Shown one piece after another: positions 28,401 through 32,376 of a stretch of 64,000 bases of DNA. The stretch is from assembly GCA_016213245.1 (NCBI GenBank), contig JACRBC010000055.1, positions 19,265-83,264 on the forward strand, read 5' to 3'. The stretch is from Candidatus Solibacter usitatus. Its GTDB lineage: Bacteria > Acidobacteriota > Terriglobia > Bryobacterales > Bryobacteraceae. The translations under genes and the position numbers were made by a program. Numbering within the stretch: the first letter of the stretch is position 1; every line of letters starts with the position of its first letter. The notes below the pieces were generated by a model. The model ran no database searches. It was not told the DNA's origin and worked only from the letters and a program-made list of their open reading frames with translations.

Positions 28401-28830
28401 TGTGCCTGCCGCCATTCACTCACAAAAGTACCGCATGTGGCCTCCGTGCGCCGTGCCCCTCCGGCTCGCGCCCGCCTCCTATCCGCCGGGCGCCCCGGTC
28501 TCTTCATCGACGAACCCGGCGTCGCCCAACCCGGCGATGATGGAGTCGTCCAACACCTGGCCGCTGTCGCCAAAACCACGGGTGCCGGCAACTTCCACCC
28601 GTGGACCATCGCGCCCGCGGCTCTCTCCTGCGCCACATACGAAGCGTGCCTGAAGCGAACGTGAGTTCGCCTGCGCCAGGTGGACCAGTGGATGGCCCTG
28701 ATCGGCGGCGTCTTCCGGGCCGTCGTCGGCCCGCCGCCGGTCGCCTCAGGGCTCTCACGAAGGGTCTCCCAGCCAGTTGTCACTTTCTTGCCTTCCTTCA
28801 CGCTTCAGAAGGTAGAGAGGAGAATCAACC

Positions 28831-29166
28831 ATGGCCAAGAAAAAAGCGCCGCTTAACGAATCCGGCAAGGGAGCGCCGGCTGCGAAAAAACCAGGCCCGC
28901 GGAAGGCGCAATTGTGGAATCGGACCGTGGCCCGCGAGATCGCCCTCGACCAGACAATGGTTGCCGATGCGGACCTGGACGACAAACTCGGCGGCCAACG
29001 GGTGGCCCTTTTCTCACAAGATGCGCGCGACTTGTACCGCCAACGCTGCGTCGACGAGGCGGGACGCCGGGGCCATGCCGTCGTCAACCCGGATGCGATC
29101 CCTGCCGACGCCGACACCACTGTGAAGGAGGTGGGCGATGCCCTGTTTGACAATGCGAGGCCGTAG
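28831..29166 (+). CDS. Hypothetical protein (111 aa, Lys-rich N-terminus)
   Basis: Continuous ORF preceded by gagagg-type ribosome binding site; no recognised family. Confidence 0.6.
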   Translation: MAKKKAPLNESGKGAPAAKKPGPRKAQLWNRTVAREIALDQTMVADADLDDKLGGQRVALFSQDARDLYRQRCVDEAGRRGHAVVNPDAIPADADTTVKEVGDALFDNARP

Positions 29167-30403
29167 GCTCGCGTCGGTCGCACTGGTTGTCCTGCCAGCC
29201 TTGCTGTACGCGGCAGACCCGGTCCAGTTCCTCGACGCGAGGATTGACTTGGACCGGCGGCAGATCACGGTGGCTTCATCTTCCAATCGCGAGGACTTCT
29301 TGGCAGCGGCTGAGGCGTTAAGTGAAGCGGCAAACTGGAAGCTGCAACTCGACACAAAACCGCTTGGTGTCCGCAATGCCAGCGTCAACGCCAGGGCCCG
29401 CACCGTCACAATTGAGTATGATCCGCGGCTCCTGCCATTTGAAGAAGCGGCGGACATCGACACCGGCGCGCTGTCGGTCCTTTATGTGCCGCTCACCGTC
29501 AAACTAGCGATACCGGCTGGCAAGTCCGCGCCGGCTCCTCCAGCGCTTCAGAATCCGTTGGCGCGCTGCTTCTCTTACAAGCTCACGGGCGAGAAAAAGA
29601 AAGCCGACATCGACATTACGGCCGGGTGGCAAGTTGGAGAAAATGTCAAGCCGCTCTACTTTTGGAGCGTCAAGGCTGGATGCCCGTCACCCTTGGGCGC
29701 CGGTGCGAAGTATGGCAAACTCGGTCCCACGTTCTCGGCGGAGGCAAGCCAGCAGCAGAACGCCGACCCCGATTCCATGAAGGCCGCGATCGCTTATCGC
29801 AAGGATCTGCCCATCGGAAACAGACGCGATGGCTGGCAGTTCAATGCAGACCTGCTGAGCTACGAGTTCGAACGGAAAATAGCCAAAGAGCCCGTGCTCA
29901 GTGATGCGGGCAGGCCGGTGCTGCGCAAGTACATCGACAAGAACTCCAATCTGACGTGGACGAGTAATGCGAAGTATGTGAACCCGTGGAAGCGGATGAA
30001 CTGGACTCTGGGGCTGGCGGGATTCGAGTCCGGCCGTGCCGTGAGCCGGACCGTCAAGTCCACTTCGAGCGATCGGGAGGAGCAGGGCGTTGCCCGCCTC
30101 CTCTTTGATCTGGACCTGCAGAAACCGCTGTTCCGTCAAGGCAGGCCGGTGCTGGAACTGCACGGCTACCATTCCTTGCGTCTGCCGTTCCGGCAGGAGC
30201 CGTTTCAGCGGGTAGGCGAAAACGGCGGGGAAATGTACCTCACCAACAAGCCGCGTCATTGGACCCTGATCGAGGCGAGCTGGCTCATCACCAAAGGCGC
30301 CAAGATCGGCTTCCAATACAAGCGCGGCTCGTTGCCACCGAGTTTTGAATTCGTCGACCATCAATTGACGGTAGGGCTCAACCTGCTGTTGAAGCGCAGG
30401 TAG
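29138..30403 (+). CDS. Hypothetical exported protein, possible outer-membrane beta-barrel
   Basis: Signal peptide (MRGRRLASVALVVLPALLYAADP); alternating beta-type C-terminal strands (ASWLITKGAKIGFQYKRGSLPPSFEFVDHQLTVGLNLLLKRR). Confidence 0.6.
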   Translation: MPCLTMRGRRLASVALVVLPALLYAADPVQFLDARIDLDRRQITVASSSNREDFLAAAEALSEAANWKLQLDTKPLGVRNASVNARARTVTIEYDPRLLPFEEAADIDTGALSVLYVPLTVKLAIPAGKSAPAPPALQNPLARCFSYKLTGEKKKADIDITAGWQVGENVKPLYFWSVKAGCPSPLGAGAKYGKLGPTFSAEASQQQNADPDSMKAAIAYRKDLPIGNRRDGWQFNADLLSYEFERKIAKEPVLSDAGRPVLRKYIDKNSNLTWTSNAKYVNPWKRMNWTLGLAGFESGRAVSRTVKSTSSDREEQGVARLLFDLDLQKPLFRQGRPVLELHGYHSLRLPFRQEPFQRVGENGGEMYLTNKPRHWTLIEASWLITKGAKIGFQYKRGSLPPSFEFVDHQLTVGLNLLLKRR

Positions 30404-30576
30404 AGCCCAACCAGCCCGGGAGACTCCGCTGGATGGATCCGTCGCCCAGTTCGCCGGTGTCTCCCTCCTCGCGTCCCCCGGCGCCCAGCCGTAGCCCTCC
30501 CTGCCACTGCCAAAGCTCGGAAGTGTATTCACGCGGGGCAGCCGCACGGCTCGCCCCGCCTTCTCATCCGCCCGCC

Positions 30577-31227
30577 CTACGCGCTCAATGTCACCGCTGT
30601 CTTGACGCCGATCGCCTCAAGTATCTCCTGCAGCCTCCCGATCGCCACCGTCTGGTACTCACTCTCCTCATAACGGCTGATCACTTGCTTGCTCACTCCC
30701 AGCCGGTGCGCCAATTCCGTTTGCGACAGTCCCCTGGCGATGCGGATCTTTACGATGAACGGCGCGGCCTGGTCCAGCCGCTCAACGGGCGGCAGTGACA
30801 GTTCGCCGGACTTGAGTTGATCGTACTCGCGCAGTTCGTCTTCGAGTTGCCGGATCATGCCCTCGTAGCTGCCTCGAACCGCCGCCGATCGCTTCCCGGC
30901 CATCTCCTCATCCGCCTTGGCCAGCGCCCGCCGAAAGCCCGCTACCTGAACACCCACGTCCGGCCGGGCCTGCATCGCGGGATGGATGAAAAACGCAAGG
31001 CCGTGGCCGGCCCACATCCGCCACTTCCACTTCCGTACCCGCGGTACCAGGATCGGTTCGAAGTCGATCCAATACGGATCAAGGCGATCATAGACGCCCG
31101 CGTCCGGCTCCACCCAATAACCGTCCACATCGCCCGGACCAGGTTTCTCCGTACAGAAGCTCCCGTCGATGTAGATCTCCGCGACGCGGCGGCCAGCAAG
31201 GCCGCCGTGGCTACCTTCTGGTACCAC
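30577..31227 (-). CDS. Fusion of DUF6932-like (nucleotidyltransferase-like) domain with XRE-family helix-turn-helix; GTG start, N-terminus possibly truncated
   Basis: EIYIDGSFCTEKPGPGDVDGYWVEPDAGVYDRLDPYWIDFEP followed by coiled region and RIARGLSQTELAHRLGVSKQVISRYEESEYQTVAIGRLQEILEAIG. Confidence 0.65.
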   Translation of the reverse strand: MVPEGSHGGLAGRRVAEIYIDGSFCTEKPGPGDVDGYWVEPDAGVYDRLDPYWIDFEPILVPRVRKWKWRMWAGHGLAFFIHPAMQARPDVGVQVAGFRRALAKADEEMAGKRSAAVRGSYEGMIRQLEDELREYDQLKSGELSLPPVERLDQAAPFIVKIRIARGLSQTELAHRLGVSKQVISRYEESEYQTVAIGRLQEILEAIGVKTAVTLSA

Positions 31228-31230
31228 CGC

Positions 31231-32376
31231 ATGGCGCAGAACGGGATACTATGGATTCAGTCCCCGCAGTGGAGGAGAACTGGAGTGGGCGCTTTCCAAG
31301 CGGCGGCTGCCGTGGTCACGCCGGCCGATGCACCCGGCATGATTGTTTGGCAGGCCAGCGACGGCCGCGCGCGCATCGAGTTCACGCGCGCCGTGCTGGA
31401 GCGCGTCCGCTTTGAGTGCTCTCGCGCCATGAATGGGCTGGGCTCCACCGGCATCGGCGGCGTCCTGCTCGGCTCCCGGGCAGGTAACTCGTTTCGCGTG
31501 CTCGATTGGAAACCCATCGCCTGCGATCACTCCCGCGGCCCGGCGTTCCTCCTCTCCGCCCGCGATGCGGCCGGCCTGGCCGCTTTCCTGGAAGGCATGG
31601 AGGCTCACTCCGGCCAGGCGATCCTCGGCTGGTTTGTCTCCCACACCCGGCAGGGGCTGGCACTGACCCCGGAGGAAGAGCAACTGCACTCGCGCTACTT
31701 CCCGTCCGGCTCCTTCGCGATCGTCGTCACGCCCGACCGGCTTGGGAACATGCTCTGCGCCGTGCACCTGCAGGGCTTCGCCGCCCCGGCGTTCGACGTC
31801 GTCCCCCTGCCGGGGAAGGCCCGTGAGCCCGGGCAGCGGCGGGCGAGGAAATCCGCCCCAGACAGGCCCGCCCCCGCCGCCGCGGCCCCCGCAGCCCCCA
31901 CCGGCCCCGCGCCCCGCCGGCCCGCCCGGCGCTGGCCGCTCTGGGTGGCCGCGTCGCTCGCCGCCGTCGGCCTGGGCGTCGCCGCCGTGGTGGCCTACAC
32001 CCGGCGCGCGCCCGAAAAGACCGCCGCTGTGCAGGCTGTCGCCCCCATCCAGATGCTCTCCCTGCACGCCGGCCCGCGCGACGGCCGGTTCGTCATCTCC
32101 TGGAACGGCGAGGCCGACGCCATCCTTTACGCGTCCCGCGTTACCGTCATCATCCGGGACGGCGACAAGACCGTCCGCCGCAACCTGTCGCGCCGCGACG
32201 CGCGCTCCGGCATCCAGTTCTACCACCCGGAATCCGGCAGAATCGACGTGACCCTGCTACTGAAAGCCGGCAACGGCCAGGAGTTTCAGGAGTCCACCCG
32301 CTACTCCCGGCCCGCCGGCCCGGCCGCCGAACTTCTCCGTGTCACGCCCGACATGCTCCCGCCCGCCGGCAACTGA
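31231..32376 (+). CDS. Degenerate JAMM/MPN-domain protein with single TM helix and C-terminal beta-sandwich-like domain; start uncertain (31231, 31285 or 31339)
   Basis: GGVLLGSR...AILGWFVSHTRQGLALTPEEE has JAMM spacing but substituted His/Ser/Asp; TM helix WPLWVAASLAAVGLGVAAVVAY; Pro/Ala linker before TM. Confidence 0.6.
   Translation: MAQNGILWIQSPQWRRTGVGAFQAAAAVVTPADAPGMIVWQASDGRARIEFTRAVLERVRFECSRAMNGLGSTGIGGVLLGSRAGNSFRVLDWKPIACDHSRGPAFLLSARDAAGLAAFLEGMEAHSGQAILGWFVSHTRQGLALTPEEEQLHSRYFPSGSFAIVVTPDRLGNMLCAVHLQGFAAPAFDVVPLPGKAREPGQRRARKSAPDRPAPAAAAPAAPTGPAPRRPARRWPLWVAASLAAVGLGVAAVVAYTRRAPEKTAAVQAVAPIQMLSLHAGPRDGRFVISWNGEADAILYASRVTVIIRDGDKTVRRNLSRRDARSGIQFYHPESGRIDVTLLLKAGNGQEFQESTRYSRPAGPAAELLRVTPDMLPPAGN

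Follow-up and report, generated by a model that had tools for sequence, protein, structure and literature searches.

The locus analyzed here raises the question of whether a bacterial membrane protein that carries a broken version of the JAMM motif is a genuine relative of the MPN/JAMM proteins, which include enzymes that remove ubiquitin from other proteins, and, if so, what role its domain might play at the cell envelope. The gene lies in a 64,000-nucleotide stretch of a Candidatus Solibacter usitatus assembly, referred to below as the window. As stated in the original prediction, the quoted motif sequence is present, the open reading frame at 31231-32376 on the forward strand is real, and the DUF6932-HTH gene is divergent; we place it at 30577-31227 on the reverse strand. 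The coding start at 31231 probably does not hold. In 31231-31338, differences from the nearest relative, L042, are distributed 1/5/6 over codon positions 1, 2, and 3, with no third-position bias, compared with 16/7/48 from 31339 onward. Judging from these differences, ATG at 31339 is probably the start codon and is preferred over 31231; a GTG near 31309 may be an alternative start. The proposed succession of a Pro/Ala linker, one transmembrane (TM) helix, and a C-terminal domain rich in beta structure agrees with our annotation, the linker by sequence and the other two parts by prediction (Table 1).

Table 1. Features of the window gene and of related fusion proteins.
Feature	Position or locus	Strand	Basis
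Whole gene, 345 aa (probable start): pseudo-MPN - linker - TM - Ig/FN3-like	31339..32376	+	ORF, codon-position pattern
MPN/JAMM-like domain, residues 1-145, predicted to be catalytically dead	31339..31773	+	Relatives, degenerate-only profile, Foldseek
Gly38, at the site of the JAMM catalytic Glu (TGIGG vs VEVGG)	31450..31452	+	Alignment
Cys62 of the family signature C[DE]HxRGPxFxLS	31522..31524	+	Conservation of 97-100% in every clade, whether intact or broken
JAMM motif region V100-S101-H102 ... T110 ... E113	31636..31677	+	Alignment vs H-S/T-H-x7-S-x2-D
Pro/Ala/Arg-rich linker, positive charge ahead of the TM helix	31774..31938	+	Sequence
Predicted single transmembrane helix, residues 201-222	31939..32004	+	Predicted helix; TM between domains family-wide
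Predicted periplasmic Ig/FN3-like beta-sandwich, residues 239-323	32053..32307	+	AlphaFold and Foldseek of this part alone
Pseudo-MPN - TM - Ig/FN3-like - TonB_C fusions	L234-L250, L252, L253		Clade B

The JAMM/MPN+ metal and catalytic motif, given as E-xn-H-S/T-H-x7-S-x2-D in PMC300881, is not matched by the window protein. Glu is replaced by Gly, the first His by Val, Ser by Thr, and Asp by Glu, so that the second His is the only one of the three zinc ligands that is kept. The changes of the first His, Ser, and Asp had been anticipated, but the loss of Glu had been missed, and the exchange of Ser for Thr is not degenerate by itself, since it is found in otherwise intact members of the family. 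Searched alone, the window protein yielded no valid Pfam or NCBIfam match and did not reach Pfam JAB. Weak matches to DotU and anti-sigma models in the linker/TM region were far below the cut-off and were rejected. The best PDB match of the single sequence was the Caldiarchaeum Rpn11-like JAMM protease (PDB 6fjv/6fju; E=0.097).

No gap is needed to align the window motif GWFVSHTRQGLALTPEEE with the pattern GW[FY]HSHTRxxxxLSxxD seen in intact family members. This confirms the predicted consensus spacing and indicates that the likeness reflects homology; a chance motif is ruled out by the same alignment. Intact members score above the Pfam JAB and Prok-JAB cut-offs, and the full motif with the upstream VEVGG Glu is represented by GWYHSHTRSEILLSAQD in L032 and GWFHSHTRSGIHLSQED in L029. 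Because relatives keep the full motif and pass the JAB cut-offs, we regard the MPN relatedness of the window domain as settled. A mixed profile of 18 members matched structures of Rpn11-like protein, CSN5, Rpn11, AMSH, and Rpn8. A second profile (A2), composed of degenerate sequences and including no HxH member, matched the Rpn11-like structure 6fjv (E=9.4e-6), followed by Rpn8 (E about 0.007), and 11 of the 14 members of this set matched Pfam JAB weakly (best 7.9e-4, below the cut-off). With profiles matching solved MPN proteins, the family is related to JAMM proteins, one of the two points on which the original prediction had staked its validity. The whole-protein single-sequence AlphaFold model is of low confidence (pLDDT 44.9); its Foldseek list, headed by Cap3, CSN5/CSN6, Rpn11, and Rpn8 (best E=8.4e-3, probability 1.00), lends slight support to an MPN fold. 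Judged from its relatives, the window domain is thus truly homologous to MPN/JAMM domains, and its metal site is broken.

A search of the order's 257 genomes detected the family in 226, at 1-8 copies per genome; it comprises two main clades. A scan of genome contigs returned one distant locus. The 141 distinct domains sampled divide into 44 with a complete motif and 97 with a broken one. The first His is missing from 95 of the 141, the second is retained in 128, and every domain has Asp or Glu at the acid position. The window clade (17 members, support 100/100) has uniformly lost the first His, exchanged Asp for Glu, and kept the second His, with Gly in place of Glu in 14 members; H102 and E113 are invariant within it. 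The first His is Arg throughout clade B (33 tree rows, support 100/100), which includes the second family copy of the window genome, located at C31. The expectation that some relatives keep HxHx7SxxD was correct, but the intact copies belong to other genera, and both copies in the window genome are broken. When the motif columns were left out of the tree, at least nine changes of the first His were counted; this was a quick tree with weak deep branches. On this evidence, the putative dead form arose several times in the family. The best matches in other families of the phylum (L008, L194, L196, L200, and L201) have intact motifs and a TM anchor, and this suggests that the ancestral state was an active JAMM protein bound to the membrane.

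Several individual relatives deviate further. L230 and L231 (G602 and G595, both of the window genus) are additional relatives of the degenerate type, each with a weak TonB_C tail, and L231, reading GFFRSCTGRELALDAAD, has lost the second His as well. L233:898-1902 (G187) retains no trace of HxH and has the same TM helix and C-terminal domain; an aminotransferase-like open reading frame follows it. L192 (G188, from a different family of the same phylum) falls outside the main family and has a clade-B-like domain, GFYRSHNREGLGFDGED, with Arg at the first His position. L007 (G210, another family) and L080 (G624) have almost identical motif regions across two families, which may be due to lateral transfer or bin contamination.

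The claim that the domain is cytosolic and tethered to the membrane is supported by the TM segment, a charge bias, and a fusion to TonB_C in the sister clade. In 135 of 143 family members, the MPN and C-terminal domains are separated by a TM segment; positive charge is greater on the N-terminal side of this segment in 86 members, compared with 26 showing the opposite. TonB_C (PF03544) terminates 19 of 46 sampled clade-B copies, all of them long members that were fetched deliberately, so that this ratio is not a frequency. In a Pfam test of long clade-B members, three passed the TonB_C cut-off by a wide margin, with E-values from 1.5e-18 to 6.7e-20; two more long relatives fell just below it. 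The tail was absent from every sampled intact HxH member. TonB_C acts in the periplasm. Its position at the end of clade-B proteins therefore places the MPN head in the cytosol and the tail in the periplasm. The C-terminal part of the window protein, modelled alone by AlphaFold (pLDDT 76.6), retrieved mainly FN3/Ig-like structures in Foldseek, none with E<0.001.

Nei-Gojobori dN/dS values for pairs of MPN domains, which are rough since some dS values exceed 1, were 0.08-0.29 within the window clade, 0.09-0.26 within clade B, and 0.09-0.25 between intact members. Purifying selection thus acts on the broken domains as on the intact ones, implying a working part rather than a decaying enzyme. The window domain combines lost metal ligands and selective maintenance with an MPN fold assigned by homology, as is characteristic of MPN-minus proteins.

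Taken together, the broken motif, the selection, and the tethering make the binding or scaffold role put forward in the original prediction the best reading, and we consider it fairly probable that the protein serves envelope machinery as an MPN scaffold that is anchored in the membrane and has no catalytic activity. What points to tethering or scaffolding is that the dead form has arisen repeatedly, is maintained by selection, and carries TonB_C in some cases. On this reading, the protein is a bitopic inner-membrane protein in which a cytosolic MPN fold is joined by a flexible linker and one TM helix to a periplasmic Ig/FN3-like domain. The MPN-fold domain, predicted to lack catalysis, would be unable to bind the JAMM zinc in its ordinary way and most likely acts as a noncatalytic interaction module, gripping a cytosolic partner, possibly a second MPN domain with which it would dimerize. 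The TM helix and the periplasmic part could then couple cytosolic binding to envelope machinery, providing a physical link to transport or TonB components.

By analogy, a mode of action like that of Rpn8 or CSN6 is likely. Rpn8 is itself MPN-minus, and both proteins share with the window family, whose fold is assigned by homology, an MPN domain that has lost its JAMM ligands and is kept by selection. Unlike them, the window family is bacterial and membrane-tethered, with an Ig/FN3-like periplasmic part and TonB_C in some relatives, and has no known MPN-plus partner or proteasome/signalosome complex. The Caldiarchaeum Rpn11-like protease has a complete motif (GWYHSHPGLDVFLSPTD) and, in contrast to the window protein, enters the comparison without a TM or Ig/FN3 part. 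Sulfur-carrier JAMM proteins of the Prok-JAB/Mec type (PF14464) belong to the same superfamily as the window domain; however, they are soluble and intact and lie in sulfur-transfer or conjugation clusters, none of which applies to the window protein. TonB-family transducers (PF03544) are bitopic with the N terminus inside and the C terminus outside, like the window protein, and share TonB_C with clade B, but Pfam finds no TonB_C in the window protein, and ordinary TonB proteins, to our knowledge, carry no MPN head.

Eukaryotic complexes are well known to contain dead MPN domains that act as scaffold subunits. The bacterial family described here includes both intact and dead MPN domains, has lost the metal site repeatedly, and has acquired a TonB tail in one clade, and thus offers a natural series for studying the transition from JAMM enzyme to scaffold. 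In the mainly open-access literature searched, we found no description of a cytosolic head on TonB-like proteins, of MPN-TonB proteins, or of membrane-bound bacterial pseudo-JAMM proteins. It is tempting to speculate, although we hold this only tentatively, that the family constitutes a membrane MPN-plus/MPN-minus system of its own, whose cytosolic MPN heads, many of them pseudo-enzymes, are coupled via Ig/FN3-like and TonB_C tails to TonB- or MacB-type machines.

The neighborhood of the gene points to a somewhat different, and in our judgment unlikely, role, in which the protein would belong to or regulate a MacB-like ABC permease complex, with the pseudo-MPN domain as the cytosolic adaptor of that complex. 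A tandem pair of MacB-like permease genes (MacB_PCD, FtsX) lies divergently and directly upstream in the window genus and near relatives (L042, L043, L045, L046, L048, L049, and L052), and also at more distant members, intact and broken alike (L056, L058, L070, L074, and L076). The permeases of these loci share 57-77% identity with each other and only 37-43% with their closest MacB-like counterparts elsewhere in the window genome; by these identities, they are orthologues. However, many other family loci have different neighbors, which renders the linkage suggestive only, and divergent genes need not function together. Such permeases are also common, with 33 matches in the window genome. In that genome, moreover, the pair is lost: 28405-31175 takes the place of the pair seen in L042, leaving a remnant of a permease start at 31113-31253, so that the link is not obligatory. 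The DUF6932-HTH gene sits within the replacing stretch. Five intact-JAMM loci (L057, L068, L072, L073, and L079) have another type of divergent neighbor, namely a GAF-domain-type gene adjoining a YCF48/BNR-type propeller gene in four of them and a propeller-type gene alone in L072, where the GAF and YCF48/BNR-type calls follow the Pfam naming of the L073 copies only.

The main chemical rival to the dead scaffold is a protein that is still an enzyme, with a metal site rebuilt from the second His, the Glu that stands in for Asp, and perhaps one of two residues of the C[DE]H signature, Cys62 or His64. The full or nearly full conservation of H102, E113, and C62 across the window clade would fit such a site, but the first His is gone, the catalytic Glu is gone in most of the clade, and Cys62 need not be a replacement ligand, because intact members conserve it equally; we therefore think a rebuilt site improbable.

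A scaffold without catalysis might alternatively read bound ubiquitin-like proteins in a bacterial conjugation system, in keeping with the frequent action of JAMM domains on ubiquitin-like proteins or sulfur carriers (PMC1779556). The original prediction had raised a ubiquitin-like system, but no E1, E2, or ubiquitin-like gene was found adjoining the window gene. ThiF had no match within the window, and all ThiF genes of the genome are on other contigs; a Prok-E2_B search was silent, but its control genomes were silent too, and its result carries no weight. The genome has a ThiF gene beside a canonical Prok-JAB gene at a separate locus (G000:C100:5700-7101), which is probably a sulfur-carrier locus of the arrangement described by Iyer et al. 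(2006; PMC1779556). A reader of ubiquitin-like proteins appears very unlikely. Least credible of all is a decaying gene with neutral motif loss: several motif residues are lost and the neighboring operon is deleted in the window genome, but the dN/dS values rule out decay, the frame is open, the same broken pattern is fixed in 17 relatives, and the domain is 83% identical to that of its nearest relative, with a dN/dS of 0.19 for the pair.
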